A stretch of DNA of 64,000 nt, taken from Micromonospora sp. WMMD812. Its GTDB lineage: Bacteria > Actinomycetota > Actinomycetes > Mycobacteriales > Micromonosporaceae. The stretch spans positions 3,122,001 through 3,186,000 of the forward strand of contig NZ_CP114904.1 of NCBI RefSeq assembly GCF_027497215.1, in the 5' to 3' direction. This document shows positions 32,693-57,251 of this stretch, one piece after another. The position numbers were made by a program, and so were the translations under genes. Under the pieces are notes generated by a model. That model saw only the letters and a list, made by a program, of their open reading frames with translations. It was not told the DNA's origin and ran no database searches. Positions within the stretch are counted from its first letter, which is position 1; every line of letters begins with the position of its first letter.

Positions 32693-34900
32693 TCAGCCCT
32701 TCTCGAGGTACTCCGCCCGCTCCTCGTCGACCAGGGCGGCCACCGAGGCGGCCAGCGCCGGGTGCCGGATCAGCTCCGGGTCCTCCTCGACCAACGCGAT
32801 CGCCTCCGCGCGGGCGTCGCGGATCAGATCTGCGTCGCGCAGCAGCGAGAGCAGCCGCAGGTGCGAGCGGCGCCCGGACTGGGTGGCGCCGAGGACGTCA
32901 CCCTCGCGGCGCTGCTCCAGGTCGAGCTCGGCGAGCTTGAAGCCGTCCGTCGTGGAGGCGACCGCGTCGAGCCGCTCCCGGGCCGGGCTGCCCTCCGGCG
33001 CCTCGGTCACCAGCAGGCAGAGCCCCGCCGCCGCGCCCCGGCCGACCCGGCCGCGGAGCTGATGCAGCTGGGAGACGCCGAACCGGTCGGCGTCCAGCAC
33101 GATCATCACCGTCGCGTTCGGCACGTCGACGCCTACCTCGACCACCGTGGTGGCCACCAGCACGTCGAGCTGGCCGGCGGCGAACGAGCGCATCACCGCG
33201 TCCTTCTCGTCGGCCGGCAACCGGCCGTGCAGCACGCCGATCCGCAGCCCGTGCAGCGGACCCTCGGCGAGCAGCGGCGCCACCTCGGTCACCGCCAGCG
33301 GCGGGCGACGGCCGTTGTCGTCGACCGGTGGCGGCTCCTCGTCGCTCTGCGGCCCCTCGCCGATGCGCGGGCAGACCACGTACGCCTGGTGCCCGGCGGC
33401 CACCTCCTCGCGGAGCCGGCGCCAGGCCCGGTCGAGGAACGCCGGCTTCTCCGCCGCGGGCACCACGTGCGAGCCGATCGGCGAGCGCCCCCGAGGCAGC
33501 TGGGAGAGCGTGGAGATCTCCAGGTCGCCGTAGACGGTCATCGCCACGGTGCGCGGAATCGGGGTGGCCGTCATCACCAGCACGTGCGGCGGCTGGTCGG
33601 CCTTGGCGCGCAGCGCGTCCCGCTGCTCGACGCCGAAGCGGTGCTGCTCGTCGACCACCACCAGGCCGAGGTCGGCGAAGTCGACGCCCTCGTAGAGCAG
33701 GGCGTGGGTGCCGAGCACAATGCCCGCCCGGCCCTCGGCAACCTCCGCGAGGGCGCGCCGCCGAGCGGCCGCGCCGAGCGAGCCGGTGACCAGCTCCACG
33801 CGGGTGGCGTGCTCGGCCGCGTCGAGCTCGCCGGCCCGGCCGAGCGGCCCGAGCAGGTCGCGCATGCCCCGGTGGTGCTGGGCGGCGAGCACCTCGGTGG
33901 GTGCGAGCAGCGCGGCCTGACCGCCGGCGTCGACCACCTGGAGCATCGCCCGCAGCGCGACGACCGTCTTGCCCGAGCCGACCTCGCCCTGGAGCAACCG
34001 GTGCATCGGGTGCGGGGTGGCCAGGTCCGCGGCGATCTCCCGGCCGACGTCGCGCTGGCCGGGGGTCAGCTCGTACGGCAGCCGGGCGTCGAACGCGTCC
34101 AGCAGGCCACCGGAGCGCCCGGACCGAGGCCGGGCCGGCCAGTCGGCGGCCCGGTGCTTGCGCTGCACCAGGGTCAGCTGCACCGCGAACGCCTCGTCCC
34201 ACTTGAGCCGCCGCCGAGCCCGGTAGAGCTCCTCCTTGCTGGACGGGCGATGGATCTCGCGCAGCGCGGCGCCCAGCCCGACCAGGTTGCGGCTGGCCCG
34301 CACGGTCGCCGGCAGCGGATCGTCGGGCGGGGCGACGGTGTCCAGCACCACCCGGACACACCGGGCGATCACCCAGGTGGGCACGGCCGCGGCCGCCGGG
34401 TAGACCGGGATCAGCGCGCCGGCGAACTCCTCGACCTCCTCGTTGGCCGCCGCCTCCCCGTCGCCGCCCTCGCCGAGCAGCACGTACTCGGGGCCGTTGA
34501 GCTGGCGCTTGCCCCGGAACTCGGTGACCTTGCCGGCGAAGAGTCCCCACCGCCCGGGGCGCAGCTCCCGCTCGCGCCAGGCCTGGTTGCCGAAGAAGGT
34601 GAGGGTGAGCACCCCGCCGGAGCCGTCGCCGACGGTCACCTCGAGCAGGTTGCCCCGGCGCTGGCGCATCGGCCGCACCGCGGTGCGCTGCACCTGGGCC
34701 AGCACCGTGACCTGCTCGCCGACGTCCAGCGAGCGGATGTCGGTGTGCTCCCCACGCTCGTCGTAGCGGCGCGGGAAGTGGTACATCAGGTCGCCGGCGG
34801 TGTGCAGGTCGAGGTGGGCGGCGAGCGCCTTGGCGGTCTTCTCCCCGACCAGCTTCTTCAACGGCGTGTCCACCGTCGCCAGCTCGCTGCGCTCGCTCAT
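32693..34900 (-). CDS. recG: ATP-dependent DNA helicase RecG
   Basis: RecG remodels stalled forks and Holliday junctions. The 735-residue protein has an N-terminal wedge/OB domain, Walker A LLQGEVGSGKTVVA, the DExH box VVDEQHRFGVEQR, motif III VMTATPIPRT and the helicase C block VGVDVPNATVMIV...QLRGRVGRG. The native-looking sequence begins at TPLKKLVGEKTAKAL; the preceding MSERSELATVD is supplied by the repeat element that abuts the start codon. Probably cotranscribed with the DAK2 gene upstream. Confidence 0.96.
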   Translation of the reverse strand: MSERSELATVDTPLKKLVGEKTAKALAAHLDLHTAGDLMYHFPRRYDERGEHTDIRSLDVGEQVTVLAQVQRTAVRPMRQRRGNLLEVTVGDGSGGVLTLTFFGNQAWRERELRPGRWGLFAGKVTEFRGKRQLNGPEYVLLGEGGDGEAAANEEVEEFAGALIPVYPAAAAVPTWVIARCVRVVLDTVAPPDDPLPATVRASRNLVGLGAALREIHRPSSKEELYRARRRLKWDEAFAVQLTLVQRKHRAADWPARPRSGRSGGLLDAFDARLPYELTPGQRDVGREIAADLATPHPMHRLLQGEVGSGKTVVALRAMLQVVDAGGQAALLAPTEVLAAQHHRGMRDLLGPLGRAGELDAAEHATRVELVTGSLGAAARRRALAEVAEGRAGIVLGTHALLYEGVDFADLGLVVVDEQHRFGVEQRDALRAKADQPPHVLVMTATPIPRTVAMTVYGDLEISTLSQLPRGRSPIGSHVVPAAEKPAFLDRAWRRLREEVAAGHQAYVVCPRIGEGPQSDEEPPPVDDNGRRPPLAVTEVAPLLAEGPLHGLRIGVLHGRLPADEKDAVMRSFAAGQLDVLVATTVVEVGVDVPNATVMIVLDADRFGVSQLHQLRGRVGRGAAAGLCLLVTEAPEGSPARERLDAVASTTDGFKLAELDLEQRREGDVLGATQSGRRSHLRLLSLLRDADLIRDARAEAIALVEEDPELIRHPALAASVAALVDEERAEYLEKG

Positions 34901-34980
34901 GCCGGCACTCCGCTCCGCTGCGCGCCGCCACGAGGCACCGCCGCACCGAGCCTGATGATTCGCTCGCTGCGCTCGCTCAT
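34897..34980 (-). CDS. 27-codon coupling mini-ORF, MSERSER element copy A
   Basis: An ATG-TGA frame of 27 codons starting MSERSERIIRLG and ending AQRSGVPA. Its ATG overlaps the stop of the DAK2 gene (ATGA) and its TGA overlaps the start of recG (ATGA). The first 19 nt of the element (ATGAGCGAGCGCAGCGAGC) recur exactly at the recG start, 80 nt away. Copy B at 49860-49943 has the same length, frame layout and overlaps. Whether a peptide is made, or the frame only passes ribosomes on to recG, is unknown. Confidence 0.6.
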   Translation of the reverse strand: MSERSERIIRLGAAVPRGGAQRSGVPA

Positions 34981-36584
34981 TCGACGCCTACCAGGAGCGG
35001 GTAGCGCGGTTGCCCACCCGGATAGGCCTGCACCTCGACGAACGGCCAGTGCTGCCCGACGTGGGCACTGATCGCCTCGACGAGGCCGGCCGGGGCGTCG
35101 GCGCCGGAGATCAGGGTCACCAGCTCGCCGCCGCCGCCGAGCATCCGGTCGACCACCGCGGCGCAGGTGTCGGTCAGGTCGGTGCCGATCAGGTGAACCT
35201 CCCCGTCGACCAGGGCGAGCACGTCGCCGGGCTGGCAGGGCCCGGCGACGGTCAGCGCCTCGCGGCTGGCGTAGCAGACCTCGGCGTAGCGGCAGGCGCC
35301 CGCCGCCTCGGCCATCGCGATGACGTCGTCCTCGAACCGGCGACCCGAATCGCGGACCGCCAGGGCGGCCAGCGCCTGCACCGGCGACCGGGTGGGCACC
35401 ACGCTGACCTTGACCCCGAGCCGGTGCGCCTCCTTGGCGGCGGCGCCCGCCACGGCCTGGGTGTTCGGGTCGTTGGGGAGCACCACCACCCGGGCCGCGC
35501 CCGTGGCCCGGATCGCGTCGAGCAGCTCGCCGGTGGACGGGTTGCCCGGGACCACCGTGGCGCCCTCACCGCCGAACAGCTCGGCGATGCCCGCACCGGG
35601 GGCGACCACCACCGCCGACCGCGCGGCCGGTGCGAGGACCGGCGGCGTCTGGTCGGCGAAGCGGGTCACCGAGATCTGGTGCGGGCGGCCGGCGACCACG
35701 CCCGCCTCGATCGCCGCCCCGACGTCGTTGACGTGCACGTGCACGTTCCAGGTCGGTGCTGGCCCGGCGCCGTCACCGACGATCACGAGGGAGTCGCCCA
35801 GCCCGGCGAGCACGTCGCGCATCCGGTCGACCGCCTCCGGCCCGGCGTCGAGCAGGAACTGCACCTCATAGGCGTACCGGTCGGAGCCGGTCTCGCGGAC
35901 GGCGGTGGCCGGCGAGGCGGACGCCCGCGGGGCGGGGGCCACCCGGGCCGGGCGCTCCCCCGTGACCACCTCGACCAGCGCGTCGAGCAGCAGGCACAGG
36001 CCGCGGCCGCCGGCATCCACCACGCCGGCCCGGGCCAGCGCGGGCAGCTGCTCCGGGGTGCGCGCCAACGCCTCCGCGGCCTCCCCGGCCGCCGCCCCGG
36101 CCACCGCGCACAGGTCGTCGCTGTCGGCCCGCTCGGCGCCGGTGGCGGCCGCGGCGACCACGCTCAGCAGCGTGCCCTCGACCGGCCGGGCGACCGCGGT
36201 GTAGGCGGCCGCGGTGGCGTCGCGCAACGCCGCCGCCAGCTCGCGGCCGCGCAGCGCCGGCACGACCGCGGCCGCGTCGGCGAAGCCGCGCAGGATCTGC
36301 GAGAGGATCACGCCGGAGTTGCCCCGGGCGCCGAGCAGCGCGCCCCGGGCCATCAGCCGCAACGCGTGCCCGTGCGGGGTGGCCTCGCCGTCGGGGAGGG
36401 TGTCCAGGTCCATGGCGAGCGCCTGCTGCGCGGAGGTCAGCGTGAGCACCAGGTTGGTGCCCGTGTCGCCGTCGGGCACCGGGTAGACGTTGAGCTGGTC
36501 GATCTCGGTCTGGTGCCGCTTGAGCGCGGCCAGCCCGCCCGCGCACCAGCGGCGTACCGCGGCGGCGTCGAGGGTGTCCAGCAC
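34977..36584 (-). CDS. DAK2-domain protein, FakA/YloV-like
   Basis: A 535-residue protein with an N-terminal DhaL/DAK2 domain (HQTEIDQLNVYPVPDGDTGTN and RGALLGARGNSGVILSQ, the ADP/Mg-binding motifs) and a C-terminal FakA-like domain. In Firmicutes the homologue FakA phosphorylates fatty acids bound by FakB (DegV). The GTG at 36584 (VLDTLDAAAVRRW) was chosen on family similarity; a GTG ten codons upstream is possible. The gene pair DAK2-recG, divergent from rpmB, is conserved in actinobacteria. Confidence 0.88.
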   Translation of the reverse strand: MLDTLDAAAVRRWCAGGLAALKRHQTEIDQLNVYPVPDGDTGTNLVLTLTSAQQALAMDLDTLPDGEATPHGHALRLMARGALLGARGNSGVILSQILRGFADAAAVVPALRGRELAAALRDATAAAYTAVARPVEGTLLSVVAAAATGAERADSDDLCAVAGAAAGEAAEALARTPEQLPALARAGVVDAGGRGLCLLLDALVEVVTGERPARVAPAPRASASPATAVRETGSDRYAYEVQFLLDAGPEAVDRMRDVLAGLGDSLVIVGDGAGPAPTWNVHVHVNDVGAAIEAGVVAGRPHQISVTRFADQTPPVLAPAARSAVVVAPGAGIAELFGGEGATVVPGNPSTGELLDAIRATGAARVVVLPNDPNTQAVAGAAAKEAHRLGVKVSVVPTRSPVQALAALAVRDSGRRFEDDVIAMAEAAGACRYAEVCYASREALTVAGPCQPGDVLALVDGEVHLIGTDLTDTCAAVVDRMLGGGGELVTLISGADAPAGLVEAISAHVGQHWPFVEVQAYPGGQPRYPLLVGVE

Positions 36585-36777
36585 GGCGAGAAGCCTACTG
36601 GCGCACGCCGACACGCGGGTGGGCTCGTCCGGCGTGTCCGAGGCTCCGGGCTGCCCGCGCTACTCTCGCGGGGGTCCGGGCGCGGCACCGGGGAGGCCGG
36701 GCGACCGGGGCACCTCGTCGGCGGCTTCCGCCGGCACCCGCCCACAGCCCGGTTGGGCGTCCCGGCCGGGCATCGGG

Positions 36778-48846: not shown

Positions 48847-49863
48847 TCACTCGTACGACTCGGGCTTGGCGGTGCGGCTCATCAGGGTGTCCACGGCGAG
48901 ACGCGGGTCCATCCCCTCGTGGCAGATCCGCTCGACCTGCTCGGTGATCGGCATCTCCACGCCGTGGGCCCGGGCCAGGTCACGGATGGCCAGGCAGCTC
49001 TTCACGCCCTCGGCGGTCTGCCGGGTCGCGGTCTGCGCCTGCTCCAGTGTCTCGCCGCGGCCCAGGTGTTCGCCGAACGTGCGGTTGCGGGCCAACGGGG
49101 ACGAGCAGGAGGCCACCAGGTCACCCATTCCGGCCAGGCCGGCGAAGGTGATCGGGTCCGCGCCGAGCGCCACGCCCAGCCGGGCGGTCTCGGCCAGGCC
49201 TCGGGTCATCAGCATCGCCCGGGTGTTGTCGCCGAAACCCATCGCGGTCGCGATGCCGTACGCCAGGGCGATCACGTTCTTGACCGCCCCGCCCAGCTCG
49301 CAGCCGATCACGTCGTCGTTGGTGTAGGGGCGGAAGTACGGCGTCCGGATCGACGACTGCACGAGCGTGGTCCGCCGGCTGTCCGTCCCGGCGACCACGG
49401 TCGCGGCCGGCTGCTCGCCCGCGATCTCCGGGGCGAGGTTCGGGCCGGAAACCACCACGACCCGGTCGGCCGCCACCCCGGCGGTCTCCACGATCACCTC
49501 GCTCATCCGGCGGGTGGTGCCCAGCTCGATGCCCTTCATCAGCGATACCAGTGTGGCGTCCGGGTGCAGGTGCCCGGCCCACTCGGCGAGGTTGCCCCGC
49601 AGGGTCTGCGACGGCACCGCCAGCACCACCAGCTCGGCGCCGGCGATGGCCTCGGCGGCGTCCCCGGTCGCGGTCACCCGGGCCGGCAGGACCAGCTCCG
49701 GCAGGTACTCCGGGTTACGCCGCTCGGCGCGCAGGGCGTCGGCGATCCGCTGCCGCCGGGCCCAGATCGTGACGTCCCGGCCCGCGTCGGCGAGGATCTT
49801 GGCGAACGCGGTGCCCCACGAGCCCGCACCCAGCACCGCGACGTGCCCACTCCGCTCGCTCAC
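48847..49863 (-). CDS. gpsA: Glycerol-3-phosphate dehydrogenase [NAD(P)+]
   Basis: Supplies glycerol-3-phosphate for phospholipids. The 338-residue enzyme has the NAD site [28 protein letters not shown] with a catalytic Lys, GPNLAPEIA and [20 protein letters not shown]. The start is the GTG at 49863, giving [17 protein letters not shown] comes from the repeat element fused to the start. It overlaps mini-ORF copy B by 4 nt and follows plsC. Neighbouring ddl and fbiD match the mycobacterial order. Confidence 0.95.
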
Positions 49864-49943
49864 GCCGCCGCTCCGCTTCGCTCCGCGGCGCCGTGAGGCG
49901 CCCCGCTGCTGTGCCCGATGGTTCGCTCGCTCCGCTCGCTCAC
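49860..49943 (-). CDS. 27-codon coupling mini-ORF, MSERSER element copy B
   Basis: A GTG-TGA frame of 27 codons starting [12 protein letters not shown] and ending AERSGAAA. Its GTG overlaps the plsC stop (GTGA) and its TGA overlaps the gpsA start (GTGA). The start sequence GTGAGCGAGCGGAG recurs at the gpsA start 80 nt downstream. By hand alignment about 61 of 80 positions equal copy A without gaps. The centre forms a GGCGCC-TCAC-GGCGCC hairpin. Coding status unproven. Confidence 0.6.
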
Positions 49944-50737
49944 GCCACATCGCCCTGCTGCTGGCGCTGCGCCCGACCAGGTCGCTCCCAGAGCGGCGGC
50001 GGCGTGCCGCCGCGGATGTCGGCGACCATGTCGCGCAGGCGCAGCATGATCACGTCCGTCATCTCCTCGAGGGTGGCCCGGGTCGGCTGGGCGCCGGCCC
50101 AGCGGGTCAGGTCGATCGGCGGGCCGGCCACCACGGTCACCGGGATCCGCGGGCGCAGGCTGAGCCGGGCCGTCCGCGGGTCGAAGATCCGCTCCGGCCC
50201 CCACATGGCCACCGGGACGACCGGCGCGCCCGTGGCCAGCGCCAGCCGCGCGGCGCCGGTCTTGCCCCTCATCGGCCACAGCTCCGGTTCGCGGGTGGTG
50301 GTGCCCTCGGGGTAGATCACCACGGCGCCGCCCGCGTTGACCGCGGCGACCAGCGCGTCCAGCGACCTGGCCGCGTCCACCGTGCCGCGCTCCACGGGGA
50401 TCTGCCGGCAGCGGTGCAGGATCCAACCGACCACCGGCACCCGGAACACGCTCGCCTTGCCCAGGTACTGCGGCCAGCGCCCGGCGTCGTAGATGAAGTG
50501 CGCGGAGACCAGTGGATCGGCGTGCGACAGGTGGTTCGGCACGATGATCATGCCGCCGTCCCGGCGGAGGTGCTCCATGCCGCGCCAGGTCCGCCGGGTC
50601 CACACGGTCATCAGCGGCTTCACCAGCACCACGGCAAACCGTGCCCAGAACCCCAGCCTCCGCCGTGCCACCGCGCCTCCTCGTGCCGCCCGGGCCCCGG
50701 CACCGGACCCGCCGGTGCCACCCGCAGCCGAAATCAT
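49940..50737 (-). CDS. plsC: 1-acyl-sn-glycerol-3-phosphate acyltransferase (PlsC family)
   Basis: A 265-residue acyltransferase for phosphatidic acid synthesis. Motif I is [13 protein letters not shown] (NHxxxxD), then PVERG and the EGT motif [20 protein letters not shown], then [13 protein letters not shown] hydrophobic stretch near the N-terminus ([17 protein letters not shown]) may attach it to the membrane. GGGGGAG precedes the ATG. It starts the plsC - mini-ORF - gpsA unit, and is divergent from fbiD. Confidence 0.92.
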
Positions 50738-56615: not shown

Positions 56616-57251
56616 TCAGCGCCGGGTGGTGGCCTTCTTAGCCGGCGCCTTCTTCGCCGGCGCCTTCTTGGCCGCCGTGGTCCTGCTGGCCGCCGTGGTG
56701 GTCTTCTTCGCCGCGGCGGTCCGGCCCGCCGCCGCGGTCTTCCGCGCCGGGGCGGCCTTCTTGCTGGCGGCGGCCTTCTTGGTGGTGGCGGCCTTGGTCG
56801 CCGCCGTGGTCTTCTTCGCCGCGGCGGTCTTCGTCGCGGTGGTGGTCTTCTTCGCCGCCGCCGTCTTCGCCGCTGCGGTCTTCTTGGCCGCCGTGGCCTT
56901 GGCGCCGGTCGCCTTCGCCCCGGTCGTCTTGGCGGCCGTGACGGTCTTCTTCGCCGCCGCCGTGGCCTTCGGCACCTTGCCGCTGGCCACCATCTCCTTG
57001 AACCCGGCCCCGGGTCGGAAACTCGGGACCGATGTCTTCTTGACCTTCACCGCCTCGCCGGTACGGGGGTTCCGGGCTGTTCGCGCGCCACGGACACGCT
57101 TTTCGAACGCTCCGAAACCGGTGATCGCCACCTTCTCGCCCTTGGTGACCGCCGCCTGGACCTCAGTGAGGACCGCCTCGAGCGCGGCCGACGCCGTCTT
57201 CCGGTCCCCCAGGCGAACAGCGAGCGCCTCGATGAGCTCGGCCTTGTTCAC
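56616..57251 (-). CDS. hupB: HU-family nucleoid protein HupB (extended tail)
   Basis: A 211-residue HU/HLP protein. Residues 1-90 are the HU fold ([54 protein letters not shown]). The rest is a Lys/Ala/Thr repeat tail (AAAKKT, KKAPAKK units) resembling histone H1 and mycobacterial HupB. The GTG at 57251 has GGAGG 5 nt upstream. The tail binds DNA non-specifically in homologues and may be acetylated. Confidence 0.96.

Follow-up and report, generated by a model that had tools for sequence, protein, structure and literature searches.

A probable MIRU-type miniature mobile element with a bridging mini-ORF at ATGA and GTGA gene junctions in Micromonospora and other actinomycetes

A 27-codon frame that joins a DAK2/FakA-type gene to recG in the window (the whole 64,000-nt stretch of Micromonospora sp. 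WMMD812 DNA analysed here) belongs to a dispersed repeat family which is, in our judgment, probably a MIRU-type miniature mobile element; judging from its presence and absence between species, it would insert at the tetranucleotide DTGA and maintain translation of the following gene by way of a bridging mini-ORF. This copy, copy A, runs on the minus strand from 34980 to 34897 and reads MSERSERIIRLGAAVPRGGAQRSGVPA followed by a stop, with an ATGA overlap at either end, its ATG lying over the upstream stop and its TGA over the recG start, an arrangement which the first-pass annotation had described and which the sequence confirms. The DAK2/FakA-type gene ends on the minus strand in ...GTCGAATGA, and the ATG inside this end starts the 27-codon frame; the mini-ORF itself ends in ...GGCATGA at 34897, where the final ATG is the recG start. 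Domains found upstream of copy A are DAK2 and FakA-like, and those downstream are the RecG wedge and helicase. One further family member in the window, copy B, has the same layout but with GTGA at both ends, and separates genes for an acyltransferase and a glycerol-3-phosphate dehydrogenase. Both copies have 76 nt between the two DTGA; an empty site has one DTGA, and a filled site two. The features are:

34897..34980, minus strand: copy A, bridging mini-ORF of 27 codons with DTGA (ATGA) at both ends
34958..34980, minus strand: left end of copy A, ATGA plus the hairpin-forming motif GCGAGCGCAGCGAGCGAAT, model columns 1-23 (family-alignment covariation; no preference for it in nearest-neighbour folding)
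34896..34934, minus strand: right end of copy A, predicted hairpin that takes in an SD-like GGAG and the start codon of recG (copy A fold and family statistics)
34882..34900, minus strand: 19 nt of the left end repeated where recG starts; compared with relatives, about 9 nt of this repeat are extra
34977..36614, minus strand: DAK2/FakA-like gene upstream of copy A (domain matches)
32693..34900, minus strand: recG, downstream of copy A (domain matches)
49860..49943, minus strand: copy B, a 27-codon bridging mini-ORF bordered on either side by GTGA
49859..49897, minus strand: right end of copy B, predicted hairpin with SD-like motif and the downstream start codon (fold)
49940..50737, minus strand: acyltransferase gene (PlsC-like) upstream of copy B
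48847..49863, minus strand: NAD-dependent glycerol-3-phosphate dehydrogenase gene (GpsA-like) downstream of copy B

Elsewhere in the window, 56642-56963 looks coding and contains direct repeats of 18 nt; it may encode a tail rich in lysine and alanine.

Copies are numerous in this genome and reach well beyond it. A search for the core GAGCGAGCGNAGCGAGCG allowing at most 2 mismatches finds it 3 times in the window, where 0.22 matches are expected and none of 100 shuffles yields as many, and model R1, built from sequence only on 37 copies (alignment A1), scores 74.7 bits at copy A and 65.7 bits at 49942..49860, both window copies being part of its training set. When the complete genome (7.13 Mb, one contig) was searched for other copies, as the first-pass annotation had proposed, BLAST with copy A returned 43 matches at E<=10, including 12 below 1e-4, and R1 returned 29 at E<=0.1 and 24 at E<=0.0016. 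By hand count, 20 of these 24 carry an in-frame DTGA-to-DTGA ORF (84 nt in 11 copies, 75 nt in 7, 69 nt in 1, and 63 nt in 1); three of the other 4 are out of frame and one is truncated. Relatives carry copies as well, and most copies keep stop-start or start-codon overlaps, the former being a condition set by the first-pass annotation. The left-end pattern TGAGCGAGCGNAGCGAGCGNA, in which TGA is the only context prescribed, is present in 29/61 genomes of the genus and in 112/250 genomes and 19/44 genera of the Micromonosporaceae, and a reversed control pattern had 0 matches among those listed for the same family. R1 has matches in 68/160 genomes and 30/56 genera of the order, Micromonosporaceae included, at E<=0.01 per genome, a threshold at which one or two genomes are expected by chance, and in 24/148 genomes and 13/81 genera of the class at E<=0.001.

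The case for movement comes from comparing junctions between species. At the DAK2-recG junction, relatives without the element have the bare ATGA overlap; specifically, Micromonospora noduli and its relatives read GTCGA-ATGA-GCGAACCAGCCACGGTGGAC, a direct overlap, and no full left-end core stands beside recG in any of 80 named recG loci from Micromonospora, Salinispora, and other Micromonosporaceae. At the copy B junction the best-matching relative (L350) has a bare GTGA, and two others (L205 and L210, flanks 86-87% identical) carry the element, there with ATGA, T at base 23, and ATGA where our copy has GTGA, C, and GTGA. The original suggestion of a repeat residing at ATGA/GTGA junctions, with the tetranucleotide on both sides and the chain of 4-nt overlaps kept, is upheld; relatives show the empty site. 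Its companion, that the start-codon context is duplicated, needs adjusting: the first 19 nt of copy A do recur at the recG start (34900..34882), but this repeat is rejected as a general part of the element because the right flank varies after DTGA among 69 non-tandem copies. In relatives without the element, recG lacks 9 of the 19 nt, and the 9 extra nt of our recG are the codons RSE. A target extended to DTGAG was likewise rejected, C or A following DTGA in 15/69 right flanks.

Seven recG junctions hold other material, as judged by eye (L114, L143, L154, L155, L158, L167, L170). In two of these, L114 and L143, the material starts with ATGAGCGAGC and is perhaps a shortened form related to the element. 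Phytohabitans suffuscus (L167) and two Plantactinospora (L154, L155) have unrelated-looking inserts between DAK2 and recG; those of L167 and L155 also run as ATGA-bordered short ORFs, and are perhaps other families of the same kind.

The fetched loci held 156 distinct copies, one of which was dropped with an ORF running off the locus; in the remaining 155 the left base is A in 105, G in 49, and C in 1, and there is no left TTGA. Outside the Micromonosporaceae, where 60 of 77 loci picked by R1 match yielded 70 left ends, T is the left base once. The left TGA closes the frame of highest third-position GC in 105/123 non-tandem copies, and a coding frame is entered at the right D in 88/94 copies without another copy behind, that is, the element lies on the strand of both its upstream and its downstream frame. 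A short ORF (<=100 nt) is found in 139/155 copies, always ending in ATGA (106) or GTGA (33); the other 16 have longer ORFs, mostly gene fusions or out-of-frame tandems. With right ends located without use of the frame (27/155 copies had none recognised), the border-to-border distance is 2 mod 3 in 127/128 measurable copies of the family, the one exception being 69, and falls in frame into the classes 65, 68, 71, 74, 77, 80, and 83. Beyond the family it is 2 mod 3 in 52/55 measurable copies (exceptions 79, 79, and 81), with further classes of 86, 101, 104, and 107, making eleven classes in all from 65 to 107; there, 53/57 copies open into an in-frame coding region, and of 65 short ORFs, 59 terminate in ATGA or GTGA, 3 in TTGA, and 3 in some other way. 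Tandem pairs are looser in their periods, 30/40 listed pairs being 2 mod 3 and 10 not (64, 69, 72, 75, 78). The right start is preceded at 4-8 nt by an SD-like motif in 119/128 distinct copies; before the left start one lies within 15 nt in 67/110, and 43/110 left flanks have none.

In four genomes (L069, L071, L311, L312) a copy sits on the start of a gene, probably rplX, whose product begins MKIKKG or MKVKKG and which has A after its start codon; in L069 and L071 the left TGA closes no upstream frame. A truncated element makes up the N-terminus of a 106-codon protein (321-nt ORF) in this genome and three relatives (G000:C1:4308265-4308310, L339; L005, L228, L230, L235), and insertions can therefore turn into protein starts.

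We propose that upon insertion the host gene's original start codon would come to start the mini-ORF, and the last four bases of the element would supply the host gene with a new one; a ribosome on the mini-ORF would open the right hairpin, terminate at the TGA, and pass to the downstream gene, via re-initiation or the uncovered start, and selection would act on the frame and not on the peptide. A start masked by structure and opened by a ribosome on the upstream frame corresponds to the RNA-unfolding model of coupling, presented as established in the relevant passages of PMC12548453. Counted against such a bridge are the 10/40 tandem pairs whose periods break the frame chain, the 3/24 copies of this genome that are out of frame and the one truncated copy, the 16/155 copies with long ORFs, and the 43/110 left flanks in which no SD-like motif is seen. 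The frame lock (127/128 measurable copies) and the conserved MSERSER start, though that start was in the search pattern, might be read as marks of a functional small peptide; yet 40 independent pairs of similar copies, the fixed left end excluded, differ 89, 84, and 78 times at codon positions 1, 2, and 3, and 44/151 single-change codons are synonymous (0.291 against a neutral expectation of 0.274), and the border distances span the whole range given above. On the codon counts we reject a functional peptide, which we now regard as scarcely credible.

Both ends can be drawn as hairpins. The left end takes the form D-T-GA-GC-GA-GC-GNA-GC-GA-GC-GA-A-Y, its loop being GNA and its stem containing G.A mismatches; in the right end, a GC-GNA-GC hairpin is enclosed by an outer stem, TCAYG/CRTGA. 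(In one other family, L414-L433, the inner right hairpin is by eye mostly GCC-loop-GGC, with GNA or GNNA loops.) Scored on the 37 copies from whose alignment it was derived, which favours the structure, pairing holds in 91.8% of cells against 86.0 in shuffles, cells changed on both sides number 29 against 6.3, and the covariation score is 0.205 against 0.113, in each case with 0/500 shuffles reaching the value; slid along the alignment, the structure scores 0.020-0.111. On the same scoring, further pair types are not raised (16 against 14.8, with 136/500 shuffles reaching 16), and pairs changed on both sides are barely above shuffles (7 against 3.8; 7/500).

The left D covaries with base 23. 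In 118 deduplicated non-tandem copies of the Micromonosporaceae the combinations are 68 A-T, 32 G-C, 4 A-C, 4 G-T, and 10 others (p 1e-18 on the 2x2 part), outside the family (n=70) 43 A-T, 16 G-C, 7 A-C, 2 G-T, and 2 others (p 2e-8), and for the right D against the Y of TCRYG 48 T-A, 17 C-G, 10 C-A, and 2 T-G, the motif being missing in 45/122 (p 2e-8); all of these p values are too small, because the copies are not independent events. Among nearest pairs, base 23 changed in 5/9 where the left D had also changed and in 1/41 where it had not (p 3e-4), and of 15 units with unlike left and right D, 12 have a base 23 that fits the left one. Left and right D are A/A in 49, G/G in 12, and mixed in 7 of 69 copies, with C on the left in 1. 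Folded as RNA, the last 43 nt have a mean of -19.4 kcal/mol (z -2.53; 69/111 below -2), and the unpaired value of the downstream start is 0.20, as against -13.5 (z -0.22; 7 below -2) and 0.65 for 105 native starts on the left side of the same copies. The left hairpin is unsupported by nearest-neighbour energies (mean z 0.31; 0/111 below -2). GNA loops closed by G-C pairs form very stable DNA mini-hairpins, according to PMC4686876, and we infer that energy models under-credit them. The paired hairpin ends may point to how such elements choose their sites.

What these pairings are for bears on how the element would move, and here two readings, either of which is compatible with insertion, must be weighed. 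Quite possibly the pairings at both ends exist only as RNA structure, under selection at the site of insertion to conceal starts and tighten coupling, insertion having followed another route that duplicates a 4-nt target: the right end folds far better than native starts do (-19.4 kcal/mol and z -2.53 against -13.5 and -0.22), RNA unfolding is an established coupling model in the text cited above (PMC12548453), left and right D agree (49 A/A and 12 G/G of 69), and copy B has changed in step when compared with the same junction in L205 and L210. This sits poorly with the RNA energies of the left hairpin, which do not favour it, and with G-T being no commoner than A-C (4 and 4 of 118, small numbers) though RNA accepts G-U. 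More tentatively, the ends may be what an HUH-type transposase (IS200/IS605 or REP/RAYT-like), still present or by now extinct, recognises as structured single-stranded DNA; internal bases would pair with the DTGA border and target and so choose ATGA or GTGA. This would add to the bridge rather than replace it. The pairing of left D with base 23 in 118 copies and an independent 70, its persistence in 12/15 units with differing D, and the GNA loop in both end hairpins, of a kind that stabilises DNA mini-hairpins in what PMC4686876 reports, all accord with this, as does IS608, which according to PMC5934647 reads its tetranucleotide through a guide beside a hairpin, the border tetranucleotide staying in the left flank. 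Unlike IS200/IS605 members, the element has no transposase, shows pairing for one base beyond the constant TGA, and has its guide 3′ rather than 5′ of the left hairpin. PF01797 occurs in 71/250 genomes of the family, and does not track the element, which is present in 31/71 genomes with it and 81/179 without (hand count); it is absent from our genome, and the 30 Y1 loci examined gave one weak motif match and no convincing element end. A resident Y1 transposase as mobiliser is not supported. Agreement of left and right D also fits plain target duplication, and the in-step change at copy B is also expected from in-place constraint. REP sequences, which go with RAYT transposases, resemble the element as short dispersed repeats with hairpin-forming ability; they differ in being extragenic and are not known to carry a bridging ORF.

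Some features of the family might suggest that nothing transposed at all, and that copies spread via slippage, recombination, or gene conversion among GC-rich start regions. Tandem arrays exist, and in a two-unit array at one locus shared by two species (L173 and L175, 95% identical flanks) the middle parts of the units are alike within but not between the species, as if homogenised. Similar units nevertheless stand at unrelated junctions, as in L173 and L176, which we rejected as one locus, their flanks not being alignable; entire units are found in one species and missing from another at a shared junction; and 88/94 copies open into a gene start. We consider an origin without transposition improbable, and return to a mobile element with a bridging mini-ORF.

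Such an element is not of an undescribed type, as the first-pass annotation had supposed. MIRUs (mycobacterial interspersed repetitive units) have already been described as mobile, inserting at start codons, and carrying an ORF coupled at -4 nt, in PMC12548453, which cites Supply et al. (1997) for this. Our element resembles them in being a short repeat at DTGA starts, with a 4-nt ORF overlap, both dispersed and in tandem, and oriented like the genes around it. As far as PMC7977185 gives the sequence, the MIRU292 unit is 53 bp long, again 2 mod 3, and in sense is a DTGA-bordered unit with a core GAGCGCAGCGA followed by AGGAG, both common to the element. A MIRU292 20-mer has five copies, all in 1/160 genomes of the order, and 4/5 MIRU copies there have a 57-nt bridging ORF ending in ATGA. 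In contrast, the left end and most of the sequence are unlike the element, and R1 on the five MIRU loci gives E 0.09 and 0.14 only, both in one locus; common descent of the element and the mycobacterial MIRU is therefore only plausible on sequence grounds.

Among the matches listed in a search of the open-access literature, we found no description of an element of this type outside mycobacteria. As far as searched, the reach beyond mycobacteria, the frame lock across eleven classes, the covarying ends, and the predicted masking of the downstream start are new. We would put forward, as a conjecture less likely to be right than wrong in its entirety, that there is a class-wide actinobacterial family of miniature elements of which MIRUs are the mycobacterial branch; that its target, ATGA or GTGA, is picked by internal guide bases pairing in a single-stranded hairpin; and that its insertion is disarmed by a frame-locked bridging ORF and a hairpin-masked start.

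To our knowledge, the mechanism of MIRU movement is not known. With plentiful copies, empty sites for comparison, and ends that covary, environmental actinomycetes are a setting in which the insertion mechanism and the bridging model alike are testable. Our results also suggest that protein starts of the MSERSER type are often leftovers of such insertions, and that start codons next to them are easily misannotated.
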